A stretch of 64,000 nucleotides of DNA from Hymenoscyphus infarciens (Eukaryota; Ascomycota; Leotiomycetes; Helotiales; Helotiaceae), in assembly GCA_001414345.1 (NCBI GenBank), contig LLCB01000238.1, forward strand, positions 1-64,000. Direction: 5' to 3'. The notes beneath the pieces are model-generated. The model had not been told where the DNA came from and did no database searches. It saw only the letters and a list, made by a program, of their open reading frames with translations. Numbering within the stretch: the first letter of the stretch is position 1; each line of letters opens with the position of its first letter. Positions 1,988 through 56,626 of this stretch are shown here, piece by piece. The translations under genes and the position numbers were made by a program.

Positions 1988-2098
1988 TATTATAGAAAAG
2001 AGAGTCTTATATAACCCCTTTTCCTTATATATATAGCAGAGTTTTCATCTTCTAAATTCAAGCTCCTTAGAGCGTTTTCAACCTAAAAATACGTTATA
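1988..2098. mobile_element. RIP-mutated copy of the 113-bp LTR-like element
   Basis: It aligns along its length to 59760-59872. Both share the core TATATATAGCAGAGTTTTCA and the later AGCTCCTYAGAGCGTTTTCA. Apart from a two-base shortening of a G run, the differences read as C-to-T or G-to-A in this copy (for example CACGTGACC becoming TATATAACC). Flanks AGGTA and TAGTA could be a decayed 5-bp target duplication. Confidence 0.75.
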
Positions 2099-2840
2099 TA
2101 GTATTAATCCAGTTGCTTTTAGTAGATTTAGAGAAGACGTAATACTATAATAAGTGAAATCCTAATACTAGCTAATTTGTTACTAACTTACTATTACGTT
2201 ATAAGGTTTAACCTAAGAGTAGTACTTAGTTCTATACTTCTATTTATACTACCTAGACCTCTTTTAATTACTCTATTACTATTACTAGAGATTCTTTACC
2301 TCTTCTAGTAATTCTCTTAACTTAAATATAGTATATACTAATAATATAGAATAACTATTATAAGTATTACCTCTAATCTTAGATTAGTATATAGCTCTTA
2401 CCTTCTTAGAGTTATATATAATTCCGCGGTATATCTAGAGTAGAAGTTCTCTAGTATTAGTAAATATATAGAATTAGCTTTAGAGGCTTTTTTAATTAGT
2501 TCGTTTTAGTAGTCTATAGATACTACTATTAAGTAAATAAGCTATATAGGTCTTTTTTACTAATATCTAGTATATTACTATATATAACGTAGCTTCTTCG
2601 TAGAAGGTTAAGAGGTCTAAAACTCTAATAGTCGTAAAAGAGGTATTACTACGTCGCTTTTTTAACTTAAACTTAGCTCTATAGACAGTCTTAGAGACGA
2701 AGTAGAACTACTAGAGGTTTATAGAATACACTATATATAGATATTAAGTCTTCGTATTCTAATTCTTAAAATCTACTAATGTATTTATATTATAATCTCT
2801 AAAAGAATTCTTTAAATCTAAATAGAGTTTTATAGATATT
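2099..2840. other. AT-rich RIP-degraded DNA, no gene
   Basis: Very AT-rich, with stops in every frame. Nothing recognisable beyond general degraded repeat character. Confidence 0.7.
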
Positions 2841-3118
2841 TATAATAATAAGACAGGAGTAGAGTAGAGAAGTAGTCTATTCGTAGTTATTAATACGAAA
2901 ACTAAAGGTAAAGAGCGAAGATAGCTCTAAATAATACTAATATATAAGAGGTTTAGATAGTATAAAAGAGTCCGAAACCGACTAACGTTATACGTCGGCT
3001 AATATAAAAGCCTGAACCTATGTAACCTTTCTAAAATAGACAATATAAGACAATAACTACTGAAACCTTATATATAGTAGATACTCCTAGCTATCTAAGA
3101 TAATAGTATACTATTATA
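2841..3118. repeat. Left LTR of the 2.3-kb element
   Basis: 278 bp, matching 4859-5136 in the same orientation with transition differences only. Contains the diagnostic string AACGTTATACGTCGGCTAAT. Confidence 0.85.
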
Positions 3119-4555
3119 TCTCTCTCTCTTAAAAAAGACTCGTCCTCGAGTCTATCTCTCTTATTGTTTAGAGTTAAATTAAAATACTATAGTATTTATT
3201 ATATTTATTAATTTTGTTATAAGTGAGAAGGTAGATTAGAGTCTAAATCGTAGCTGACTCGGTTTGAAGATTAATTATATTTTATTATAAGCGAGACGAG
3301 ATGTCGACTTTAGGTTCGAATCGTAACTGAACTAATTCGTAGATGCTTATAAAAGAGAGAATTCGTTTCTAATCCTTTAATATTAAAGTAAGCGTTTACT
3401 AAAAGAGAGTAGTCTGATCTATCTAAGAGGTTAGAAAAAGTTTAAAGTAAAAATCATAAAGTAGAGTCGAAGGCGAATATTGAGAAGTAAGTTATAAGTA
3501 ATAGTAATAACTTAGTTAAGAGCTTACTTCGAGAGTATACTAACTTATATCCGATTCGAGTTTGAATAAAAAAAGAACTTTTAGCCTAGCTAGAAGTAAA
3601 AAGAAAGTAAAGAATATAAGACTCTATACTAGAGTTGATAAGGTTTTAGATAGTTAAAGGCGAGGTTATTTCCGAAGTTATTAAGTTATTTTAGCTAGTT
3701 AAAAGAGTTTAATACTAAAGTTATCGTATTACCTTATTCTCTCTCTAAATTAGAGTACTTAAGGACTTATTTATCTTCTGATTTTAAAGAAGAGTCGCTA
3801 TTATATTATAAGAGATTTAGACGAGCTAAGGTATATCCTATATATAAAAAAACTATTTCTATTCTCTCCGAGTATAGCTATACTCGAAAAGCGAACGTTT
3901 CTTTAGTATAATCTTCTTCTTAATTCCACTTCTATCTCTTTTAACCTTTATACTAGTAGCTAGGACTTAGTCTATAACTGTAGTCTTTTAAATGTTTATT
4001 AATAGAGGTATTTTTAAAGAAAAAGTTTAAAGTTAGATAATGTTTAGTTAGAATTAATAGCGATAACTTAGCTAAGAGCTTGCTTCTAAGTTTCGCTCTA
4101 ACGGAAAGCGTATTTTAACTGATTTATATCCGAGTCGAGATTCGAGAGAAGTGGTGAGAAGGTATTAGAGGCAGCTATATCCCTTAAGCGAGAGAGGTCT
4201 GAATTCGAGCTTTGAAAAGCAAAGGAGGATTCGAACGAGGAGGGTTTGAAAGAGGGTCGGATCAGTGAGGGTTCGAAGGTGGGAAGGTTATTAACTTTGA
4301 AGTTCGCTTATAATTTTATCCTCTATCTCTCTAACCGATCGTTTTATCCTTTGTGTACCTTTTGCCTCTATCTCGTCTGCCTATTATTCGTATATCGTCT
4401 GAATTTGGGAAGGTTGTCTTTGAGGCTAAGCCCTTGTTGTTTCGGCGTGCGGTTGCGAGTCGGAGAGGGTTTAGAGAGTCTTTCGAAAAGAGAGGTAGCT
4501 CTAGAAGGTCGTTTAACGCCTCGTAGCGGAACTTAGGAAGGGGGGGTATGATTAG

Positions 4556-4720
4556 AAGAGGGTCCGTAGACGCTAGAAGGGGGGGATCCGAAGATACTAG
4601 AAGAGGGGTCCGAAGACGCTAGAGAGGGGGGATCCGAAGATGCTAGAGAGAGGGATCCGAAGATACTAGATAGGGGTTAGATACTAGAAGAAGGGGATCC
4701 GAAGCTAGAGGGGGGGTCTT
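4556..4720. repeat. Imperfect tandem repeat of a GGGATCCGAAG unit
   Basis: About six imperfect units of 25-32 bp centre on GGATCCGAAGATACTAGA with variable G runs between. They lie inside the LTR element, in its less AT-rich part. No coding sense. Confidence 0.75.
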
Positions 4721-4858
4721 AAGCTAGGTGTTGATTCGAGAGTCGCTAGCGAAGGGTTTAGGAAGCCGTTTTTAAAGAGGTTCGTAGAGTTAGTAGTAGA
4801 GAGGCCGGAATAGAAGTAAGGTTAAGAAGTCTAATAAGAAGAGTAACCTTTAGTTTAA

Positions 4859-5136
4859 TATAATAATAAGGCAGGAGTAGAGTAGAGAAGTAGTCTATTC
4901 GTAGTTATTAACACGAAAACTAAAGGTAAAGAGCGAAGATAGCTCTAAACAATGCTAATATATAAGAGGTTTAGATAGTATAAAAAGGTCTGAAACCGAC
5001 TAACGTTATACGTCGGCTAATACAAAAGCTCGAACCTACGTAACCTTCTTAAAATAGACAATATAAGATAATAACTACTAAAACCTTATATATAGCAGGT
5101 ACTCTCAGCTATCTAGGATAATAGTATACTATTATA
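4859..5136. repeat. Right LTR of the 2.3-kb element
   Basis: 278 bp direct repeat of 2841-3118, immediately followed by the target duplication ATATT. Confidence 0.85.
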
Positions 5137-6232
5137 ATATTTTAAGATAATTAGTATATAGCTTTTTTATAATTCTATTTTCTAATAGTTAGATTAAATA
5201 TCTACTACTTCTATATCTTTTAATAATTAGTAGAAAAAAAGAGTAAACTATATTATAAAATTTCTATTTACTAAATAAAGCGACTAGCTTAAAAAAGCTA
5301 ATATATATTAATAATCATCTATCTTTTTCTAACGATATATCGCGCTAATTATATTAGAGTAAAAAATTCTCGATTTATATTAAAAGCTAATTATTAATAA
5401 TTTATTTATATAAAAGTATTAGTATTTAAGTCTAACTATATATCTTTAATTAAAAGTATAAATAAGATAAAAGAAGATTTATTACTAAATAGATAATAAT
5501 TCTTAAAATTATCTTTTATAATATCTCTCTATCTCTCTAAAATTATAACTTAATTTAACTAAACTTACTTAAAAAATATATAAATATCAATTATAGTATA
5601 TAAATAAATTATCTTTTTCTATTATCTAAAGAAAATGCTATTAATATAAATATTTAAACTAATCAGTAAAAGAGTATTAGAAAGCCTGTTTCACTAGAAA
5701 TTTATTACTAAGAGAGATATTCTTTAATATATAAAGTAATCTTTAATAATTATAAGAAAATAAGTTATTCTAATAAAGTAGAGAAAGATAGAAAGATAAA
5801 ATCTATTCTAGAAGTAGAACAGAGATTACGTAGTAGATTTTTTAGTCTATAATAGATATATAACAAATTATATAGCTACTTAAATACGATTAAAAGCACT
5901 CTCTCGTTCTATTCTATCTTATTAGTTCTAATTCTTCTTATTAAATTCTATCTCGTCTTATTATATTCTTTACTATCTTATCAATAGTCTATATAACTAT
6001 AGAAAGGAACGAATAAGTGAAGAGTAGATTACTATTAAAATAGAGAAGAAGTATATACTCGTTATAACAAATAAAGAACTGAACTGGGTATCAAGACTAT
6101 CCTACCACCTATCAAACAAGCATACGTCTAACCACTAATCCAACCGAAAACCTCCTTTCCACATCCTATTCTATCCTAAATATAAGACACCATCGTAAAC
6201 TCTCTACTCTCATCCACTATCACCCACCACCC
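5137..6232. other. AT-rich degraded DNA, then gene-flanking sequence
   Basis: 5137-6060 is extremely AT-rich with no open frames, likely a RIPped transposon of unknown type. Composition returns to normal at about 6080, which is the 3' flank of the next gene. Confidence 0.6.
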
Positions 6233-21914: not shown

Positions 21915-23425
21915 TCATACAGTACTGCCGATCTCACCAACTCTGATTCTCCCAAACTTCGCACTTGCAGACCTCGAACTTGCTACTAAGTCTTGGGGGT
22001 TCAGAGCAGGAGTGGGGCATGTTCCCCTTTCCGCCCCTTTACCTTCGCCTAATTTGCCATCTAGCCACAGCATACCATTCCTCCTATCATCCCAAACACC
22101 CATTGACATTACCAGTCCTCTCTTCAGTATCTCCGTGATCCTCTCCATGCCCCCAAACTTGTCAAAAGTATTCCTTTCCTCAAATGCTACCTTTTGTTTA
22201 GTACAAAAAGAAGAAGTGATTGAGTCACCTGGCAGCCCCTCAATTTTTGATGACGAGTTTGGGATTTTGATACCATTTTGTAAATAGAAACGTTTTATTT
22301 CCGCGATGGAGCCAGAATCAGTCCCATCAGTGGTGGTAAATTGTGTTACGATCGTGAAGGGTTTGCTCGTATCAACTCCTTTTCCTCCAACTCCATAATA
22401 CCCAGTGTCGCCAAGTCGATACGGGTGGAAAGCACAACCATCGTCATCGCAACTTGACCATTGAGCTGCTGACTCTGGTGAGTCAATACCGCCGCAAAAA
22501 TATCCCAGGCATTGCGTTTGGGATATCGAAGCGCAAGGGTGCAGTCCGAATGAGGAGGAGATCGAGTTTCCCGTGAAGGCTTCCACGTGTGGACAGCAAG
22601 AACCACGAAGTCCAATTCCAGACTCCGCATCATCTGTTGATCTGAAATCCGGGAAGGTAGTCCAGTTTCTTACATTTGCCTTTTTCAAGACCAATTAGTA
22701 ACCTCAGTATCTTTCAATTCCCAAGGGAGACCTACTAGCCCATTCACAAAACGTAAATTCTTTCCACAACTCGCATCACAATACCCAGTTCCATATCTTG
22801 CTCCCGCCTTATTCTCCGGGTATCGAGCCATCCCACCATCTGCGTCCATTGCTAGGAAGTTTAGGTTTGCACTGATTCCACAAGGTAATTTCGACACATC
22901 AACTTCGAAGCTAATTTCGCGGTTGAGAAGTTTGAATATTTGATATGAGGTATCATCGGAGGACATCATAAATAACCGAGAGCCCTTGAACATTGAATAG
23001 TCCATGAGATTCACATATTTGAGACTTCCCAAAAATCAGTCTTCGTCATGCATTTTCATCAGAGACAGATAGACTTACGTGATCGTGTCATTGACAGGCT
23101 TAACTCCCATCTCTTTATAGGTTGAGCCGTCAATGGCGCACAACTGGGTACAAGTTTCATCATTGGCACACAACGTCCCATTCGGATAGTCCTTCTCAAT
23201 CCATTTTCCATCGGTAAAGCAATTGGTGTATGAATTATTGGCGTATTTATGAACCCATCTCCAATTCGCGTCGAAAGTGAGTGAGCCCTTTTGCTTGACA
23301 CAACCTGTTTTTGTGCATGATTCCCAGCTCATGGGTGGGTGTATTTCCGGTTGGAAAGTTGCATATTTTTGGCACTTCGCGAGAGGTAAAAGTAAACATG
23401 AGAAGATTGCGGCCAATGAATACAT
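21915..23425 (-). CDS. Secreted GH7 cellulase homologue lacking the catalytic residues
   Basis: Exons 23425-23079, 23024-22736 and 22679-21915 (introns 54 and 56 nt) give 466 residues. A signal peptide ([18 protein letters not shown]) precedes Gln, the usual GH7 mature start. Family landmarks are present: [70 protein letters not shown], and near the end [16 protein letters not shown] and ERGTC. The length fits a bare catalytic domain, and no CBM1 follows. However, the active-site strand reads [14 protein letters not shown] where active enzymes have GSCCSEMDIWEANS: the nucleophile Glu is His, the Asp is Glu, and the acid/base Glu is Thr. Cys pairs flanking it are kept and no frame damage is seen, so this looks like a maintained non-hydrolytic GH7 protein rather than a decaying one. 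It could bind cellulose or act as a secreted decoy. Confidence 0.9.
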
Positions 23426-24400
23426 AATGAAGGGTTCTGAGACAAAATCGGTAAATGGTTGTAAGGAGAGAGAGCAGAGAAGCGTTCGAAATTTTACGAT
23501 ATATTGTCAAATTGAAGTGTTCTATCTCAAAGATATATCGAGACCGCCAGCCAGCCGGAAAAAAATCCAGACTTCGGTCAAATAACTCTTGATGTACCCC
23601 GCAATCCGTTCCCGAGCTGACGAATCGTAGAGTTAGTTTCATCCCAATACACAGACCCGGCTGTGAATTAATATATTAACATGCTCGTTTAGAAAAACAA
23701 TACTGCCTCGTGCCACCACATCCATGAATGCTCCAAATCTGCTTCCCTTTCATCACCAGAAATGTATAGCGTCAAGACTAAATACTACCTCTTTTGCAGG
23801 GTCATTTGCTCTATTTTTCATAAACTTTTCTGGAGGCATTCATAAATGGCACCAATCGGAAAGTGAGCCGAAGAGATATACAATCAGCCGTTTAGGCTAA
23901 CAATTATTGGCGGCTTCTGACGGTCCGCTTTTTTCGTTGAGATTCGATTGATTGAGGGCTGCCATTTCGGTGCTTGCGGGTGTTGGACTTCCACTTTGGC
24001 TCTTTAGAGGTAGATTTATGTTTTTAACCATGGTGAGTTTGTTGTTGTAACCTTGCAAGAACTAATTCTCAGGTAGTTTCGAACTTTTGTTCTTCATACG
24101 CAATCGAATTATACACCTATTTATATATAGCCCTTTGTAGGTCCTTTGCTTGCTCACCCATGTCAATGAGAACAAATAGGCCAAGGGTGTTCAGGAGGGA
24201 ATTGGGCAGTTATCATTCTATTTGCTGCTTTCTAGGTGCCAACAGCAATGCATGAGGCTTTCAAGTCATTTCAATTCTCTCCAGATGACACGTTCTAATG
24301 ATAAGCAATTGTTTAGACTCATGATGTTTGTTTCTCAATTACTCTGCAACATACACCTACAAATGACAAACGCATTAAAAGGACAACCTTCAGGAGCTAC
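23426..24400. other. Promoter of the GH7 gene and 3' flank of the next
   Basis: About 1 kb upstream of the GH7 start with only short frames. No gene supported. Confidence 0.5.
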
Positions 24401-25306
24401 TCACAGAGAGCAAGGTCTCCGCTTCTTCGCATCAATATCCTCGTTCCCTTCTGTAGTTGAGGTCTGATCCATGACCACTTCAGAACTACCGATTCCATCA
24501 TCAAAAAATGGACCACTTGATTCAACACCTTTCTCAACATTTAGTCCATCATCTTCAAAAATTGGTCCATCATGACTCTCATCTGAGTCTAGAGCTCCGG
24601 CATACAATGCGATATATTCACCGTGCAACCGATCAATTTGCCTCTCCAGAAACCTAATTTCTTCTTCCCTTTGTTCCACCGGTAAAGCCAATGCCCCCGC
24701 AAACGCAAGACCATTCACCTTTCCTATTTGACAAAAGCCTTTGGCGCTAAAGAGTCGTTCCGCCTCAATCAACGGTGCGAGTTTGGCATTCAGGGCACTG
24801 ATATCGAAATCCAAATCTTCCAGAGTATTCATAGCAATCTGCTTTGGGGTAGGACGTAGGATCCTTGGGTGCGATGATAGTAGAACTTCTTTGTTCCAGA
24901 TGCTGATGAGTTTATGATGCATCTTGTACGCTTTGCAAGGTACCCGACAGTTAAGCTTGAGGAGATTGAAGTAGGTGAGTGCTGGCGTATTCGTAGCTGA
25001 TTTTCGCAGGGGAGAAAACAGTGGAGATGAGAAGGGCAGAGCGTCTTGGGTTTTGTCATCGGCCGCCGTGATCTGTCGCATAGTGTTTCTTCTTGGGGTG
25101 GTTGGTGAGGAAAATGCTTCTTCCTTGTCGTCATCCACGTTAATTTGCGACATGGTCTTGCTTCGAAAATTTAGAGGTGAGAAAGACACGACCTCTTGGG
25201 TTTTCAAGTCCGGCTTGATTTGTGACATGACTCGGGCTCTGAAGCTTAGAGGGGAGAAGGACAACGCCTCCTTGGATTTGTCCTCCTGGAGGTTGATTTG
25301 CGACAT
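24401..25306 (-). CDS. Hypothetical protein with four N-terminal MSQI repeats
   Basis: 301 residues from ATG 25306. The frame continues upstream, but a splice acceptor (TTTTTAG) about 12 nt before the ATG points to a 5' UTR intron. The first 105 residues are four repeats of 24-29 residues, each starting M(S/R)QI, then an acidic/Lys stretch, then SFSPL.F or SSP.TP and Arg. SP/TP sites suggest phosphorylation. The rest has a likely coiled coil (EQREEEIRFLERQIDRLHGE) and an acidic tail ending KKRRPCSL. A GTGAGT signal spans the stop codon, so a further 3' exon is possible. No known family. Confidence 0.6.
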   Translation of the reverse strand: MSQINLQEDKSKEALSFSPLSFRARVMSQIKPDLKTQEVVSFSPLNFRSKTMSQINVDDDKEEAFSSPTTPRRNTMRQITAADDKTQDALPFSSPLFSPLRKSATNTPALTYFNLLKLNCRVPCKAYKMHHKLISIWNKEVLLSSHPRILRPTPKQIAMNTLEDLDFDISALNAKLAPLIEAERLFSAKGFCQIGKVNGLAFAGALALPVEQREEEIRFLERQIDRLHGEYIALYAGALDSDESHDGPIFEDDGLNVEKGVESSGPFFDDGIGSSEVVMDQTSTTEGNEDIDAKKRRPCSL

Positions 25307-25917
25307 GGTGTTTGTGGCCCTAAAAACGAACAAGAGGTCAACTTTTTTCCGTTGAGCAGGGCTGACTGTACCGAGATTTATGGATTACCTACCTTTCAAT
25401 CCCAAGTCTTATTCCCACGGGCAAAGCACAGGCGGGTAGTCAGTGAATAAAATGACTGTGGCAAGAGAGAGTTTTGGTGCAAAAGATGTCTTGGCTGATG
25501 AATCTGCATTCAAATCATAAGCGGGCCACTTCGGTTGAATACCTCTGAGAAGATAGTTAGGGAGCTTCAATCGGCTTTTACGGAAATATTAGGCGTGTTC
25601 TTCTTCAGCCCGTTTTCGCTTAAAGGGCGTGCTCAATTCTAAGTGAATAGTTTCATGTCAGTCCCATGGGCCCGGTGCTCGGCTAGGCCTATCTTTTCTG
25701 GTTGGTAAATGTATGATTTGAGGTGGTGTTATGTGATGTTAACAAAACTTCAAGTCCCTATTTCGCTTCTACCTTCTAATAAAACTTCATTTATCCTTCC
25801 TATTGTCCTTGACAGCCTCGTCATACTGGAGTTTAGTATATGCCGTGGCCATAATAGCAAGAATGGGGCTAACATTTTCAAGTCAGTTGAGGAGCAAAAA
25901 CAAACATGTAATTAAAC
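25307..25917. other. Intergenic, no gene
   Basis: Contains the 5' leader intron of the preceding gene and the 3' flank of the microexon gene. A small open frame at 25709-25915 on the plus strand has no supporting feature. Confidence 0.5.
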
Positions 25918-27817
25918 TTACCTGACCGCATTTCCTAAGGCCAATAAAAAAAGGAAAATCCTCCAAACCCTACGCAACAAGCCACTCGGGACTCTCCAAA
26001 ACACAAACACAACCAACCCCCAGAAAGACCAGGCAACATCCCCCCACGTCAAATCCCTCCACAACCGAACGCAATTCTCCCGAAAACGACCATACAATCC
26101 CAGATCTCTAATTCTTATTATTATTAGTAAACTGTAAAGTTAAACCTCTTATGCATAAATTAAATACCTCTTCGCTTCATCCTCCAACCTCTTCCTCTCC
26201 ATCTCCTCCTCCTTTCTCTCTCCTTCCACCATCGTTCTCTCCCCCTTTCGGATAAGAAATCTACAAAGGAGGTGTCAGTAATCTTCAATAGAACAATAAA
26301 AGAGTTCACTTGGACTTACTCCTCAAGTTCAAGCTTTTTTCTTCTCCCAAATTTGCGTTAGTTGTATCTTTAATACATTGGCGGTTGGTTTTGCTCACGC
26401 GAGAGCTCTGTTGAGTAGGCTTTGGTTGTGGCTTGTTAGCAGTGACTTGGGTGCAAAAGTTCAAGGAAAACACTAACTAATTTGCAAGAGCATCCTCACT
26501 GAGTCGGTTGATTTTCAATTAGTAATGATAATTCCCAGAGAATCTGACAACTAACCTCTCCTTCTTCTCCTCTTCACTAGTGGATCGTCAGCAAAATATC
26601 TCTCTTGGGTGTGCCTGTACTCACAAAATCTTGACCTTCTTCTCCCTAGATATGCGACAAATGATTAGTTCTGACAATCATAGAAAGTCTTTGAAAACTG
26701 ACATCGATGTAATCTGTTCATCCCTAAGAAAGGTTGTTAGTAATTGGCAACGTGGAAAAGGAGCAGTTATCTTACTTCTGTTCAATCTGTAGTTCTACAT
26801 GGCTGTTTTAGCATTGAGGTTGACATGTGTGAATGAGCGAGTTCATACGACTCTGAGTTGGCCTGTTGTCTGTTTATGAATAAGAACATCCGCGATATAA
26901 ATACACAGGCGACTAGGTGGACGAACAGCCGGTTCTTCTCAGTCATTCTGTTGCATTAGGTCAGTTAGAGACCAAACAATGGGCGAGTAAGTCACAAACA
27001 ATCGTTCTGTAGTCTCCTCTCTGAATAAAACAGCAGGTCAGTAAATCTGGTAAGGTAGAGTGACCAGAGAGTACCAACGCTGCAATTCGTAACCTCTTCC
27101 TAAAAAAAAGTTGTCAGTAATTGAGAAATGACCAAGAGAGTCAGCGTAGCAAGTAACTAACTCTTCATAAAGCTGTCTCTCACTTCAAGTATTTCAAGTA
27201 AGCAATAAGTTCTGACTGGATGGAGTACAGGTTCACAAACAGGCCGAACTCGGTCCCTGAGGAGAATTTCTTAGTGTATGGATGAATGATGGGGACTTGA
27301 TGAAACATAAATTTCCGCAAGGAGGAATGCTGATTGCGGGACTCTTATTAGAAAGAATCAGATAAAGTGAGTAACACAAGAACAGCACCCGTTGTCGCCT
27401 TACCCGTCTTCAAGTGCCGAAGGCCTGGTTTCCCTGCACAGCTAAGTTAGCCATGAAAGCAATATAAGAAACATGTTTGAATTGACATACGGATGGCGTT
27501 GCTGGCCGGGGGCCGCCATATAGTCCGTTGGTGCAGCTAAATCCAAAAGCTATTAGCACCGCTCTACATGGTTTGGGTACCAAAGTCTGAGAAGACTTAG
27601 GACTTATGGGAAAAGCATGGATAGCAGTGGTACATACACGCAGACATGTTGGTTTGCATAAGGTCGGGAGGGCGGGAAAGTCCAAAGTGTTATCCATTTC
27701 CTTCAACAGCTGGTTCGCACCTTCCTTTGCTGATGTGTCAGGCGAGAACACCAAGAAAATGCTCAGTCGAAACACCACACCCCAATGCATTTGCAGAAAG
27801 CATTTGTTGTATTTCAT
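25918..27817 (-). CDS. Microexon gene encoding a helical, C-terminally hydrophobic protein
   Basis: Proposed exons: 27790-27640 (ATG 27790; another in-frame ATG at 27817), 27536-27491, 27441-27404, 27343-27297, 27256-27237, 27182-27162, 27099-27079, 27020-27000, 26947-26927, 26869-26849, 26802-26776, 26723-26703, 26645-26625, 26576-26556, 26498-26478, 26419-26399, 26343-26320, 26260-26168, 26107-25918. All 18 junctions keep one frame and the sum is 846 nt, 281 residues. Ten exons are exactly 21 nt and phase 2; neighbours are 27 and 24 nt. Introns are 40-103 nt, many with ACTAAC/GCTAAC branch sites. The protein starts with a signal-like hydrophobic segment (MHWGVVFRLSIFLVFSPDTSA), then a Cys/Pro patch, then a charged helix built one heptad per microexon, continuing as EEEMERKRLEDEAKR, and ends with Trp/Phe/Leu-rich hydrophobic segments before a stop at 25918-25920. 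No family is recognised. The 3' half from E6 is the most secure; the start and the 27-nt exon are least certain. Confidence 0.65.
26260..27182 (-). repeat. Exon-intron units at a ~77-bp period
   Basis: Successive exon starts at 27182, 27099, 27020, 26947, 26869, 26802, 26723, 26645, 26576, 26498, 26419, 26343 and 26260 are 67-83 bp apart (mean about 77). The intron sequences have diverged, but length and phase are kept, as expected for old tandem duplication of one exon-plus-intron unit. Confidence 0.55.
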
Positions 27818-28360
27818 TTACAGCTTTCGATGCAAACTAATTCTATATTAAGGGAAGGCTAGAATGAAACAGACACTCGGCTAATGCGCGATGTTTACAG
27901 ACAGTCGTCGCTTTTCCACCAAACTGAAGCATACGGGTAGCATTGGTTGTGTAAATATTCCCTCCACATTTGCGTGCTACATGTTCTTCATATCTATGGT
28001 TTGAAAGAGTATAATTCATACTTATCCATGGATACAATGAGAGCCAAATTCCTGACTACTTACTTTTCGCCCGATGATTGCAGACTTTGGTACGTAGAAG
28101 CCCATCAAGCTTTCGAGACGATCTATCAAAAGACTTCATGCCTTTTTGTGTATAGATGGAAGTTTTGAGGGTGTAGTGTAGATTCCAAAGCTCTATGGAA
28201 TTCCATAAACGTGACTTTTCACGTGTTTCGGAGCGGAAAAACCATACCCTAATTACTACCTACCTAAGAATGACATCAACAGCTAACCGTAGCTTAACTT
28301 AGTCTTCCAACCTAGCTTCCACAATCAACTCATCACTTCCAAATTTCAACTTTCCGCAAA
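27818..28360. other. Divergent spacer upstream of the microexon gene
   Basis: May hold extra 5' exons of the microexon gene; none could be assigned. Short frames only. Confidence 0.4.
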
Positions 28361-28865
28361 ATGAATTTAAGCACAAGCCTCCAAGCAACAATATTCCACT
28401 GTACAATGACATGTAGTATATCCTTCGACTTTGACTTTGTCTTCGACATCGATAGCGTCAATAACACTACCCCTTCTGCTGTGAATACAGTATTCGCAAA
28501 TGGAACGTCATCATTATTACCGCCTAGCGCATTTCCAACAACAACTATATCTATATCCTCATTTATTTACAACCAAATCCTCCCCAACTTAATCAACACC
28601 TGTCACACTTTCATCTCTGGCTTGCTGAAGTCCTATAAAGAAATAGGCGTCTTCATTTTCTACGCCCTTATGATTGGTAAAAGTTCTTCTTAACAACTCT
28701 ACCATCCTTAATAAAGGAACCACTAACTGATTGTTCTACAACTTTCTAGGTGCTGTAGTTAAGTTCCTTGCCTTGCTCGTGGACATTATAAGCTATAGTT
28801 TATGGCCTGAATATGCGTTGAGAAGAAGAGGGAGGGAAGGTGGAGTTGTTAAAAGAAAGTTTTAA
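28361..28865 (+). CDS. Small hypothetical membrane protein
   Basis: Exons 28361-28676 and 28750-28865 (intron 73 nt, GTAAAA..TTTCTAG) give 143 residues. The N-terminus is Ser/Thr/Asn-rich with a short Asp/Phe run; two hydrophobic stretches follow (about 80-97 and 100-125), the second being joined across the splice site (FIFYALMIGAVVKFLALLVD), and the tail is basic (RRRGREGGVVKRKF). Without splicing the frame stops four codons after the donor, so the intron is well supported. It is divergent from the microexon gene. Function unknown. Confidence 0.6.
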
Positions 28866-30366: not shown

Positions 30367-33300
30367 TCACACAGTCCTCCCCCTCTCCACAACAGGTCTA
30401 TCCCCCTCCTCACTCACACCATTCCCACCCCCCGTACTCCCAAGCAACCCCTCCATCGCCCTCATCAACTCCGGAATCCTAAAAGGTTTAGTAACAACAC
30501 TATCCATGCCCTCCTCCCTGGCATTAGCAATCTGCTCACTGCGCGCATTAGCCGTAACAGCCATTACCGGAACATGTCCCCTAATCCTGCCTTCCCTCTG
30601 AAGTTCCCTAATCCTCTTAACACAAGTAAGACCATCCATGACAGGCATTTCAAGATCCATGAGTATGACGTCTAGTTTAACGCCTTTCCCACCCACGCCT
30701 TCCCTACCTACCCCCGAGGAGGAAGTCGATGGGAGAGAGGCGGTAGAGGAATTCGGACCCCGAGAGCTGGCGGACCAGAAGGTGGAGGTCTCGAGGAAGG
30801 CTAGAGCTTCGAGTCCGTGGTTGGCGACTGAGACGATGCAGCCCGCGCTCTTGAGTTGCTTACAGAGCACCTTCTGATTAACAAGGTTATCCTCCACAAT
30901 CAACACATGTCTCGGCCTCTTTTCCACGACCCCTTTCCCCTCCATCCCATCCTCGCTCCTCGGCAACCCAGGGTCGTTCGCAATCCGTTCCAGCGCAGAG
31001 GGAGGAATAAGTCTCGTCTGTGCGCTAAAATCCACAGGCGTACCCGTCCGACTCGGCTCAGGAGCCACGCATCTCCTAGCATGAACATAAAAAGCAAAAG
31101 TACTCCCCACTCCCCTTTCACTCTCTAATCCAATCTGGCCCCCCTGCAACTCCGTCAACCTCCTCGAAATAAACAATCCTAGCCCATTCCCCCCATATTG
31201 AACATGAGTTCTAACACTCGCCTGCGAGAATCTCTTAAAGAGTCTATTCTTCTCATCTTCACCCAGACCACGGCCGGTATCTTGCACTGCTACGGTGATG
31301 TAAACCCATTCGTCCTCCTTTTCATGGGAGTTGGAGATGACATCTTCTTTCTCGGGTTGGATGGAGTGGTGAGTGTCTTTTTCAGAGGAGTGACGTCGGG
31401 CGCTTCCTGCTCGCGGTCGGGATCCGAGGTATTGCAGGCCTCCTGTTTGGCTTTCTGGTCGATGGGTTGAGGCGCCGAGGAAGACTTGGATTTTCCTCTG
31501 CTCCTCGGTTTGCGTAAACTTGATAGCGTTCGTAAGAAGATTAATGAAAACCTGCAGCAATCGACTCGGATCGAGGGTAACCCAATCCACCCCCAGCTCC
31601 TTATAACTCTCCTCAACCCGAACCCGTAACTCAACATTGCATTTCTGCAGTTCACCATCGAACATACGGACGGCATTCTGGATTACATCCAGTGGCTGCA
31701 CTTCAACAGGCGTGATGAAGAGTAGATCCGAGTCTAGTTTCGAGAGGGTCAAAATATCGTCGATAATGCGTTTTTGATGTTGTGCGCAGAGGAGGATAGT
31801 CTGCGCAGCATCGGCGTAGGAGTCGATGATTTCGCGAGGGACGGTGACATCGTTTGTTCCAGCCTCAAACTCAGACAAATTGCATATCCAATCCGCGCAT
31901 TGAATAATAGCACTCAACGGATTCCTCATTTCACTATATCAATTAGCAAATATCCCTATTCCAAATCGAGGAACAAGTGAAAAGGGGGGGGGGGGGTGTT
32001 ACTGAGAAGTCATATCAATAAAATTCTCCTGCTGCTTCTTCAACTCAACCGCCTCCAGCATCCTCCGATTCTGGAAGCCCTCCGCCCACTTCTGTCTTGA
32101 AATATCAGTCATACAACCCAAAATGCCCACCACCTCCCCCCTCGTATTCTTCTCCGCATAAGAGGCGGCAATAATCCACGTATACCCTTGAACCTTTTCA
32201 CCTCCCACAATCTCTTCAACTTCAAAAGGGTGTTTTAAGCGAATTTCAAAGGATGTTGCTTCGCCGTTGAGAAGCTTGCCCCAGTGGAGATCCATGAGTT
32301 CGTGGTCGTCTTCGAGGAGGGTGTCGTACCATGACTGAGAGGGTTAGTGGGTGGAATGGATGGGGGAGGGGGAAAGGGGGTTTACCATCGGATGGGAGAC
32401 GCCGCGGGGATGGCTTGTTAATCTAATCGTAGGATCAGTAATGGCTACAAGTAGCGTGAGAAAGCACATACCTGTAATACTCGTTATTCGCATAAATTAG
32501 AACGCCTGAAGGACTGATATGGAATTGGCCAGCTGGAGATAAGTCCGCCATATCTGAAATATATTGTCAGCACCCCAAAAAAACTATGTGTTATGACATC
32601 ATGTAACGTTGCCAGAGTATAGTTTTTAAGTGTACGGCTCAGATCGTGGACAGATGCATGGAAAGAAACTTACTTCGGAATCTATTTTCCGTCTGAGAAG
32701 CAGCCTGCGTCTGAATAGCCAGCTTCGCAGAAAGATGATACCTATCACGATCCGCCTGTTCAGCCACCATTCTACCTCTTCGAATCTCGTCTTCAAACAA
32801 TAACGCAGCCTATTGACATAATCAATTAGCACTCGGAACCCAAGGAATAAACACAAAGGGAGTAGAAGCCCCAAGCTAGATTTCATAGTTTTATAGGAAA
32901 GTATACTCACAGCCATACCACTAGCCAACTGCCGACTCAACAACTCAACAAACCCCTGATAATCCTCATCATAATTTTTCCAAGGATTAACCCCAAAAAT
33001 CAAAAAGCCCGTCGTACTATCCCCCGTACTCTTAATAGGTAAAAACACAGCAGCTTTATAATGCACATCCCTATCCGGATGATTCAGATGTTTCGCCAAA
33101 GAAAGTGGGAAAGTGCCATCCGCAACGGAAAGAAGGGTCGGCGCATGAGCGTGCACCATCTCCGAGAAATTAGGTATGAATTCCTCCATACTCTCTTCCG
33201 TAGTAAAACGACGAGGAAGAGGCGTTGTGCTGTCCATTTTATTCGGTGTCCCTTGGAGAGAAGCTTCCGTGGGGTTGGTCTCCCGTTTTGCTGGTTGAGG

Positions 33301-53275: not shown

Positions 53276-55366
53276 CGGAGGACGCGGTCAAAAGTATGGA
53301 GAATACAGGGCTGTGCACTGTAGGGGTGCCCTAAAGGTGGTAGGTGCCCTAAAGCCACTTTTTAGCCCCTCTTTTTAGCGAGTCTATAGGAGAGTCCTTC
53401 TTATAAATTATCCTATAACTCTATTATTTAATATATTCTTTTTAAATTTAAATACTAGTTTCTTCTTTACTTACTCTATCTTTAAAGCTCTTTTACTAGC
53501 CTTTTTACTAGTGAAATGTCTAAATTTTTAAGTAGTAAAGAGAGTCTTCTTTTAGAAGATAATAATAACTATTTATAAGATTATAACTTTAAATATAATT
53601 TAAATTATAATCTTTTTAACAATAACGACGAAGAAGAAGAGGACTCTTATAGTAGGCTTAAATTAGAGAACTTAGATACTTATTTATAGAACGTCTTTTA
53701 TACTCTAGACCCTATTCTCTCTCTCTTTATACTTTCTATCTTACTTTATCTAGCTACTATTCTCTCGCTAACTATTATTATATAATAAGTAGTTAATATC
53801 GCTTCTATAATAACGTCTATTTCTTATCCTAGCTAGTCTAAAGAGAAGAAGTAAAATTTAGTAGAAGTAAGAGTTACTACTCTCTCTCTTTTTAATTATA
53901 AGTTTAAGATAGAAGAGATTACTATCTAAACTAGTATCTCTTAGTCTAGTATTTATAAGCTATAAGTTAAGACTAAAGAGAGAGAGTAGATTCTAGGAAC
54001 AAATATAGAGACCTAGTATATAGATAATAAACCTTACTCTAAAAGGCTACTAATAATAGAGAAGATTTAGCTTTATATTTTTAAAGTTATAACTAAGAAT
54101 AGTATAATAAGAGAGTAGTTATATTAATAAATTACATAAGAAGTTTAAGAGACTTCTAGCTATATAAAAGAAGAAAGCCTATCTCTAAGTACTATTTATT
54201 AGTTAATAAGAAGTAAGAGATACTAAGTATATAAAAGAATAATAAAACTAGGTCTAAATAAGTAGTAAAAGAAGGCTTATTTAGACTAGTATTTACTTTA
54301 TAAGAAGTAGACTTTAGAGAATCAAAAGAACGTTATCTTTACTAATAAGACGTTAGTCTAGAAGAGGAGGATAAGAGAGCAAAGAAGAGTATAAAGAACG
54401 AAGGAGGAGATATATTACTAATATATTATTATACGTTAGTAGAAAGGGTTTAGTAAGTTTATATAATAGAGCTCTTTCTTTTATAATATAAAAAGGCCTT
54501 ATTATATCTAAGAAAAGGAGATAAAGAAAGAGAAGGAGGAATATAAGAGAGATATTATAATATAGAATACTACTTAGTTCTTTTAAGATAAGGAGAAATA
54601 GAAGGCTCTTTAGAATATAAAATAATAAGCGAAGATAGACTAAAAATAATAAGATATTAAGATAGTAAAGACTTAGTACTAAAAGAAGTATTATAAAGAA
54701 ACTCTCTAACCTCTTATTAATATACTTTGCCCTCTATTTAAGTATAAAGAGTCTACTAGTCTTATTATTTTAAAAAAGAGGTAAGAGGAGATAAACTAGT
54801 ACTAATATTAAAGAGAAGATTCTATGTCTTTTACTTCTTCCTTTTATATAAAAATATAAGAAGGATTAGCTAAGGACTTTAGTATAAGAAGATAATACCC
54901 CTACTTATACTTACTAAGAATAATAGAAAGTCTTTAGTATATATACTATATATAAGCTTCTTTAGCTAGGAAACTCTCCTAATCTTAACACTATAGAGCT
55001 AACTTAGTACTAGATAAAGAGAGAAATAATAAAAAGGAGGCTAATTAATACTAAGAAAGCATTAAAAGAGGTATAGATTAAGTACTAGGAAGATATACTA
55101 TAAAAGAAGATATAAGTATAGATTAAGCGTATTCTAAGGCATATTAAAGAGATTATTAAGCTTAAAGAGGGTAATAAGTATAGAGAAGGTAGATTATTAG
55201 GTAAAGAGAAGCTAAGAGTATATAATTAGTATAAATAGCTTTAAAAAAGCTCTAATAAAATAACCCCTAAACTAACTAAAAAGTAGCTTTAGAGCACCTA
55301 CCACCTTTTAGGGCACTCCTATAGTGCACAGGCCTGTATTCTCCATACTTTTGACCGCGTCCTCCG
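53276..55366. mobile_element. RIP-degraded Tc1/mariner-like element with ~95-bp TIRs
   Basis: The left end (53276-53371) and right end (about 55271-55366) are inverted copies of roughly 95 bp, starting CGGAGGACGCGGTCAAAAGT, and flanked by TA on both sides (53274-53275, 55367-55368). Most arm differences are G-to-A or C-to-T, mainly in the right arm. The 1.9-kb interior is very AT-rich, with stops in all frames, and no transposase can be read. TA duplication and end type suggest the Tc1/mariner/pogo group. Confidence 0.8.
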
Positions 55367-55979
55367 TATAGTTTAGATCGTTCTTTACCGCTTCGGTACA
55401 GGCCGAGGATAGAATAAGGTTTGCTACTGAAACCTTGGAAAGATCTTGGGACTTATGCATCGGAAATATCTCCGCCTGATTTAGGGTTTTTTATAGCTTA
55501 TGACATGTTTAAATACAGCCCCCTGATACTTGGCTCTGGAATACGGTAGGGCTAAGCTCGCAGTTCATCAACTGCTGTCCTTGGCTTTCTATTTTCCATG
55601 ACTAGAGTAGTTTGTTTTTGACTCTTCAGTGGTGTTTTTCAAGAATGGAATGCACAGTCAGCTGCTTAACTTAGTTTCAGAAGGTATTTGGGGTTTGAAT
55701 CGTTCCCGGCGTTTGGAGAGTCTCCCATCAAGATGCTCACGATCTATTCTGGTGCCATGTAGCTTCATGGATCATCTCATAGCTATGATCATGAGCAGGC
55801 CAACTATAAAGCCACCCGGAAGGACGCACAAATTTTAACTCTTCATCTCACCATCAAACATTCTTTCTAGGTCTTTTCTTATCTTTCTGTCTTTTCTAAC
55901 CTTTCCACTCAACGTTTTTGCTACCCCTCAAATTCAAACTTCGGATTTCCAATTTCCAATTTCCAACAAATCTTTCAAG
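55367..55979. other. Promoter region of the secreted-protein gene
   Basis: Normal composition resumes after the transposon. A CT-rich tract (55840-55910) precedes the ATG, as is common in fungal promoters. No gene. Confidence 0.5.
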
Positions 55980-56626
55980 ATGCTCGCCCAAAACATTCTC
56001 TTCACCTGCACAGCAGTCTTTGCTGCTTTTGCTTCCGCATCTCCCATCGAAAAGCGGGCTGTAACTGTTGCCACAGACGGTGCCACCAAGAGCATAACCA
56101 GTGTTCTCACGGTTCCTGCTCAACTTGACAGCTTTGAATCTGGTACTTCGAAAGTAGATGCGGCCAGCACTGTTTTGGGAGTTGTCAACCAAGCAGTCCA
56201 ACTTGTTCAAGGTCTCGTTGACAAAGACATTGCTGTAAGTTTCCAAATTCCAGATTTCTCTCTCCAAAAACTAAAATCAGTTTCCAGAATCGCCAAAGAT
56301 TCACACAAGAGACTGTCTCAGCTCTTGCTGCTGCGTTTCCCACCGGAACAATTGTCATGTCCAACGTCGGCTACGACCTCGTCGGCACCCCAATCGTCAA
56401 GCAAGGCACCAGCTACAAAGCCAAGGTTGGCTCCAACGTCAGCTATGACGTTCTCGTCATCGGAGCTGGACAAAGCTTCACTCTCAAAGGCGATGGAGGA
56501 TTTGAGAACGTAAGAGCTTTCAACCCCCACTGTATCCCTAAAAACACTTCAAACTAACCTTAAAAATAGTGGGCATACATTGCACGAGCCCCATGCAAGG
56601 GATCCGGAGCAAAGATCACTTGCTAG
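55980..56626 (+). CDS. Small secreted protein, unknown family
   Basis: Exons 55980-56234, 56288-56509 and 56570-56626 (introns 53 and 60 nt, both phase 0) give 177 residues. A signal peptide (LFTCTAVFAAFASASP) is followed by a possible KR propeptide site (EKRA). The first exon is helix-like and Ala/Val-rich; the later part (SNVGYDLVGTPIVKQGTSYK to DVLVIGAGQSFTLKGDGGFE) is beta-like, and two cysteines lie at the C-terminus (APCKGSGAKITC). Size and secretion make it effector-like, but no motif proves it. It was likely missed as two frames without splicing. Confidence 0.75.

Follow-up and report, generated by a model that had tools for sequence, protein, structure and literature searches.

A predicted gene with a row of 21-nt microexons in the ascomycete Hymenoscyphus infarciens

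The stretch of DNA analyzed here (the window) comprises 64,000 nt, positions 1 to 64,000 of contig LLCB01000238.1 in assembly GCA_001414345.1 of the helotialean fungus Hymenoscyphus infarciens, whose genome is registered as 65.6 Mb in 742 contigs. On its minus strand, from 27182 to 26320, lie 12 microexons, 11 of exactly 21 nt and one of 27 nt, which are chained by fungal-type splice sites. The gene model built around them has 19 exons and 18 introns, with a coding length of 978 nt and a product of 325 aa. The first three introns are in phases 0, 1, and 1, and the next 15 are all in phase 2, in agreement with an earlier sequence-only reading of this DNA, which had placed every microexon in phase 2.

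Several other features of the window were recorded. A glycosyl hydrolase family 7 gene (the cellobiohydrolase family) extends over at least two open frames at 21915-23506 on the minus strand (Pfam), and a hybrid histidine kinase occupies 30367-31938 on the same strand, with its HATPase and receiver domains above the Pfam cut-off and HisKA just below it. A 327-aa open frame (24401-25384, minus strand) lies directly downstream of the microexon gene; it belongs to no Pfam family, and by eye its first part repeats a short motif. In two AT-rich blocks, 2001-6000 and 54001-56000, the GC content in 2-kb steps is 0.28-0.31, versus about 0.44-0.50 in most of the window; blocks of this kind are left by repeat-induced mutation in other ascomycetes.

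Microexons and their splice signals

The features of the model are listed in the direction of transcription; the strict chain and the free run are two computations described below.

27638..27817, minus strand: possible exon 1 with a hand-chosen start (ATG 27817); first 60 aa, with hydrophobic, signal-like residues 6-24; no codon bias; uncertain
27536-27491, 27433-27404, and 27343-27241, minus strand: possible exons 2-4, common to 14 of the 14 paths listed in the start search; no codon bias
27162..27182, minus strand: 21-nt microexon 1, from AG/GT bounds, phase, and splice scores; a stronger acceptor exists (exon start 27172)
27079..27099, minus strand: 21-nt microexon 2, from AG/GT bounds, phase, and splice scores
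27000..27020, minus strand: 21-nt microexon 3, from AG/GT bounds, phase, and splice scores
26927..26947, minus strand: 21-nt microexon 4, from AG/GT bounds, phase, and splice scores
26849..26869, minus strand: 21-nt microexon 5, from AG/GT bounds, phase, and splice scores
26776..26802, minus strand: 27-nt microexon; the intron before it is the sole one of 13 without CTNAY (TTCAC instead)
26703..26723, minus strand: 21-nt microexon 6, also in the strict chain; the free run favors an acceptor at 26713
26625..26645, minus strand: 21-nt microexon 7, also in the strict chain
26556..26576, minus strand: 21-nt microexon 8, also in the strict chain
26478..26498, minus strand: 21-nt microexon 9, also in the strict chain
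26399..26419, minus strand: 21-nt microexon 10, also in the strict chain; the free run favors an acceptor at 26407
26320..26340, minus strand: 21-nt microexon 11, also in the strict chain; 24 nt with the GAG acceptor three bases upstream
26168..26260, minus strand: exon 17, 93 nt, in which the predicted charged helix continues; the intron at its donor is the weakest of the 18 (net score 2.0)
25922..26107, minus strand: exon 18, 186 nt, first part of the C-terminal hydrophobic region, from splice scores and the codon bias of the C-terminal exons
25787..25868, minus strand: last exon, 82 nt, with the rest of the predicted membrane segment (hydropathy 2.28 at residues 287-305), the tail, and the stop

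Donor position +5 is a G in all 12 microexons, and nine of them have the donor GTNNGT. The introns touching the array measure 46-62 nt, and 12 of these 13 contain a CTNAY branch site. The net scores of all 18 model introns are positive, ranging from 2.0 to 9.8. The sequence-only reading had proposed ten 21-nt exons, one of 27 nt, and one of 24 nt, with frequent branch sites. The ten are all present at their proposed 5' ends between AG and GT, the 27-nt exon (26802-26776) is retained by the splice-chain computation, and the branch sites are those counted above. For the 24-nt exon, the sequence fits two forms: a tandem acceptor, GAG/AAG (26345-26341, minus strand), precedes the last microexon, and its first site gives the 24-nt exon, while its second gives an eleventh 21-nt exon (26340-26320). 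The transcript would gain or lose one codon with the choice between these sites.

Since the words GT and AG are frequent and short exons can readily be placed between them, a row of this kind might arise from their chance alignment in noncoding DNA. In a strict test, the exons were fixed at 21 nt, the frame was kept open, introns of 40-75 nt had to carry a branch site, and 60 first-order shuffles were run per strand. The minus strand yielded a longest chain of six exons, the plus strand a single exon, and the shuffles reached a maximum of two, as did the same test with other exon lengths (12 to 60 nt in steps of three). The strict chain comprises six exons rather than 11 because the 27-nt exon splits the array into a run of five and a run of six.

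In a free test, exons of 9-60 nt were allowed without any preference for 21 nt, and splice sites were scored with hand-written, general fungal weights that had not been trained on this genome. The sample covered 314 kb on both strands and consisted of 26 sequences: besides the window itself, there were 25 pieces of 10 kb, including the 10 kb that follow it on the contig. The array scored 83.5, versus 20.7 for the next best chain, and no second array occurred in these 314 kb out of the 65.6-Mb genome. In the free run, eight of 13 exons were exactly 21 nt long, because stronger acceptors inside three exons win; the acceptors of these three are therefore not unambiguous. With exons limited to 12-45 nt, the count rose to 11 of 13, at a score of 79.1. 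The 5' part of the model is at the level expected by chance (20.4 versus 20.7). The array itself is an outlier both in the 314 kb and against the shuffles, and it has a codon bias that splice words leave unexplained; we therefore give chance alignment almost no credence.

Coding bias and the 5' end

Codon usage was derived from 3356 codons of the window, which make up five long open frames. A first test weighs stops heavily, on a frame that had been chosen open; here the predicted frame of the microexons (86 codons) earns +32.3 bits, and the two alternative frames come to -15.8 and -45.2. Taken singly, all 12 microexons are positive. A second test omits stop codons and uses 2000 base shuffles of the per-codon score. 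Under these conditions, the predicted frame of the microexons has +25.1 bits (0 of 2000 shuffles), and the remaining frames give -1.7 (1004 of 2000) and +10.3 (29 of 2000); the codon bias in the last of these frames is some evidence against the gene model. The C-terminal exons score +16.1 bits in frame (0 of 2000), versus -10.3 and +0.3, and the codon score of the intron cores is -12 to -25. That the microexons and the C-terminus are coding is well supported. With stops again omitted, there is no bias in exon 1 (-2.6 bits, reached by 316 of 2000 shuffles) or in exons 2-4 (-0.3 bits, 525 of 2000), and thus the N-terminal part, unlike the microexons and the C-terminus, is not supported as coding.

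Given the margin of the array score, the 15 phase-2 introns, and the codon bias, this is very probably a real protein-coding gene, and the phase-symmetric fungal microexon gene that had been proposed is borne out by the splice chain, the phase, and the bias of the microexons and C-terminal exons. We put at about 0.8 the probability that the locus is a single-copy protein-coding gene whose mid-section, an array of phase-2 microexons, encodes a charged helix ending at a C-terminal membrane segment. A decaying or unexpressed relic of a former gene, with splice sites still readable, would also account for the lack of a homologue in the protein database and of coding bias in exons 1-4. It is an improbable explanation of 18 positive-scoring introns, a frame that is open to the stop, and a strong codon bias in the microexons and C-terminus.

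The 5' end is a separate matter. The best path in a start search begins at ATG 28276 and scores 33.1; ATG 27817 is listed with a path that scores 26.0 and in which the hydrophobic segment is removed by splicing. Of the 14 paths listed, 12 begin elsewhere and score at least as high as this one. The unspliced 27817 form in the model was picked for its signal-like segment (hydropathy 1.62 over residues 6-24). Its intron chain into the array scores 20.4, and a chain score near 20 is no proof, because the best other chains in the genome sample reach about the same value (20.7). A further in-frame ATG (27311), located in possible exon 4, needs a single intron, and its score of 3.5 is not comparable with the others because scores add up with intron number.

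The gene may therefore be shorter or have another 5' part. Translation from ATG 27311, for example, would yield a protein that lacks a signal peptide and is tail-anchored, its charged helix lying in the cytosol and its C-terminus in the membrane, an arrangement compatible with a real array. This ATG is in frame, exons 1-4 lack codon bias, and paths from other starts, up to ATG 28276, outscore 27817 in both its spliced and its unspliced form; on the contrary, the hydrophobic segment at 27817 and the recurrence of exons 2-4 in every listed path favor the longer form. We consider another 5' part to be a serious contender, at somewhat less than even odds. Of the signal-like N-terminus described in the sequence-only reading, the hydrophobic residues 6-24 are present in the 27817 frame; their place in the protein is doubtful, with exons 1-4 unbiased, other starts scoring higher, and the segment omitted from the ATG 27311 protein.

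Copies, relatives, and known microexon systems

No second copy of the gene was found in the genome, where the region matches only itself. The terminal parts of the protein likewise match only themselves, two other hits having E values of 8.8 and 0.8. A repeated or transposable element was considered and rejected on the same self-match, from a search that skips some repeats. No Pfam family exceeded its cut-off for the microexon gene (the best was Dsc3_C, E 0.031, 14.9 bits versus a cut-off of 25). An RNA gene was considered and rejected, as no Rfam family reached the gathering score in 25500-28500. A search of a viral collection with the C-terminal exon gave 38 pattern matches, none of them a relative.

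In the protein database, no relative turned up at E 0.1 when the query was the microexon and C-terminal part (437 candidates of about 113-359 aa), or at E 10 when it was the whole model (2074 candidates of about 179-569 aa). This database includes at least one protein of a congener: among the matches listed (best 120 of 4667), the Pescadillo of the window is 92% identical over 94% to a Hymenoscyphus albidus protein, and the next 19 listed matches (of the same best 120 of 4667) are 82-85% identical, many of them named Helotiales. On the H. albidus match, a basidiomycete source of the DNA was rejected. That no homologue was found despite the H. albidus protein is a weak point against the gene model. 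Both searches depend on five-residue words in common, and exons of this kind may be overlooked by gene finders; the result is therefore weak evidence of absence from relatives. The annotation of H. fraxineus and H. albidus was made with MAKER, SNAP, and Augustus (PMC8254937).

We also considered the Kar5/Tht1 nuclear fusion protein, which has the same order of signal segment, helix, and membrane segment, and rejected it, since its conserved N-terminal cysteine domain was not matched at the microexon gene. A hand-written Kar5 consensus matches another locus (C41:9442-9840, L028:1309-1881) with an E value of 2.1e-24; a Kar5 stretch used before it had matched nothing. From this consensus, we take the C41 locus to be a probable Kar5-like nuclear fusion gene. 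Pfam Tht1 matches neither the microexon gene nor the C41 locus, and at E 1 no Pfam family at all came up for the C41 frame. It may be that the Tht1 model does not respond well to the C41 form, or that the Kar5-like name is wrong.

The sequence-only reading had compared the gene with two animal systems. Schistosome microexon genes (MEGs) carry about 80% of their coding sequence in symmetric exons of 6-36 bp, and their products are nearly always secreted or membrane-anchored (PMC5825161). The gene described here resembles them in having short symmetric exons and a frame that is kept under skipping. It differs in that its microexons make up 258 of the 978 nt of the model (26%), a share that would be higher if the start is 27311, in that nearly all of them are of one size, and in that its host is a fungus. 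As for secretion or anchoring, it has a predicted C-terminal membrane segment, and its N-terminal hydrophobic segment lies in an exon without coding bias.

The bicycle genes of aphids have many small internal exons, almost all in phase 2, with about 17 exons on average (PMC9168663). They form large families (476 genes in one aphid), many members having cysteine-tyrosine-cysteine motifs and signal sequences and some lacking the motif, and they were traced by gene structure rather than by sequence (PMC9168663). With 12 small internal exons, 15 consecutive phase-2 introns, and 19 exons in the model, our gene is similar in layout. Unlike them, it is present in single copy, contains a predicted membrane segment, and has no cysteine-tyrosine-cysteine motif: the model has four cysteines and no C-x(0-3)-Y-x(0-3)-C.

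Exact exon length is paralleled in the leucine-rich-repeat (LRR) genes of Tetrahymena, which contain tandem arrays of exactly 90-bp exons with phase-2 introns and one residue shared per junction, and in which intragenic repeat units are detectable in the DNA (PMC6564038). The present array shares with them a single exact length (11 of 12 exons at 21 nt, with acceptors ambiguous in places), phase 2, and the shared residue at junctions; in contrast, its exons are of 21 nt, it has no leucine-rich repeats or Pfam family, and its units are dissimilar.

Microexons have also been described in fungi. The NACHT-ANK (nank) genes of the truffle Tuber melanosporum, an expanded family of the NLR type, are reported to contain several alternatively spliced 3-bp microexons (PMC4986451, PMC10197012). 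They share with our gene an ascomycete host and the presence of several microexons, and differ from it in the size of these exons and in the expansion of the family. The original account of the T. melanosporum nank genes is reportedly that of Iotti in 2012. In Trichoderma, the transcription factor Xlr2 has one 20-nt microexon whose inclusion depends on glucose (PMC11121469); this is again a filamentous ascomycete, with only one such exon. The P450 genes of Phanerochaete chrysosporium have microexons (2-10 aa) among small introns of 45-55 bp (PMC1184071); unlike ours, these occur here and there in an established enzyme family, the host is a basidiomycete, and no equal-length array is described in the available part of that paper.

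The claim that there is no fungal equivalent thus needs to be narrowed. Fungal microexons have precedents in the truffle NACHT-ANK genes and Trichoderma Xlr2; neither is an equal-length array as far as these sources go, and none was found in the microexon literature searched (e.g., the best 25 of 1,554 matches). The microexon gene shares design features with each of the known systems and has the full set of defining features of none of those tested.

The predicted helix and its possible variation in length

From residue 120, the model protein has a proline-free stretch of 118 residues that contains two glycines and consists to 49% of D, E, K, and R. Residues of opposite charge are spaced i,i+4 in 22 cases, versus a shuffle mean of 13.8; 0.42% of shuffles give as many, and six spacings were tried in all. 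On its composition, this segment looks like a charged helix of the ER/K type. Each microexon had been supposed to add one heptad to a coiled coil. The length of seven residues is correct; the heptad in the coiled-coil sense is not convincingly supported. In the eleven seven-residue rows, nine hydrophobic residues fall in the chosen a/d register, as in 4.0% of shuffles for that fixed register and 23.8% for any register; over the whole helix region there is no heptad preference, 98-99% of shuffles reaching the best register. Toward the C-terminus, hydropathy is about 1.3 at residues 256-281 and is strongest, at 2.28, at residues 287-305. When joined, the 12 microexons would form a long, charged alpha helix, continued by exon 17 and ending at the C-terminal membrane segment. 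We infer from this arrangement that the product may be anchored in a membrane and function as a helical rod.

Fungal genes usually have few introns, and fungal splicing is based on intron definition: introns of about 50-60 nt are recognized as units. A row of 21-nt exons can therefore be spliced without exon definition. If the gene is spliced as drawn, its short introns (46-62 nt) would be removed in this way, which tolerates exons that are too short for exon definition.

Their equal size and phase suggest that the units arose long ago by multiplication of a single exon with its intron. The spacing is regular, with eight of 12 units at 78-80 nt. We considered tandem duplication of a roughly 78-nt unit in the recent past and rejected it, as no sequence similarity is left (mean z of 0.33 for the intron cores; 130 of 200 codon shuffles attain the identity seen between exons). 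With the similarity gone, repeated intron gain at a fixed spacing is also possible.

Because every unit is a multiple of three and in the same phase, any of them could be lost, whether through splicing or through deletion, with the frame intact. It is therefore conceivable that subsets of the microexons are skipped, so that one gene gives helices of several lengths. In favor of this, frame and phase are preserved in each of the 12 units, the microexon genes of schistosomes are portrayed in such terms (PMC5825161), and the 3-bp microexons of truffle NACHT-ANK are said to be alternatively spliced (PMC10197012). The main objections are that short introns and good donors suit constitutive removal, and that fungi favor intron retention over exon skipping. 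On balance, a protein of variable length seems unlikely. Seven residues correspond to about two turns of a helix, and this invites the still more speculative idea of a molecular ruler set by splicing: each 21-nt exon would lengthen a rigid, charged rod ending at the membrane by seven residues (about 1 nm), and the length of the rod would be set by exon choice or by the gain and loss of units between species. We consider such a ruler to be less likely again than variable length.

If the ruler is true, rod length would be set in steps of 1 nm with the helix face nearly unchanged, and this would be the first fungal equal-length microexon array, as far as the literature searched shows. So far, genes built of microexon rows have been described in a small number of animal lineages. 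Exact 21-nt units in a fungus would show that this layout also arises where genes usually have few introns and where splicing relies on intron definition. Such genes may escape gene finders, as suggested by the protein database, in which no annotated relative was found. The array also offers a defined test of how 12 exons that are too short for exon definition all come to be included.
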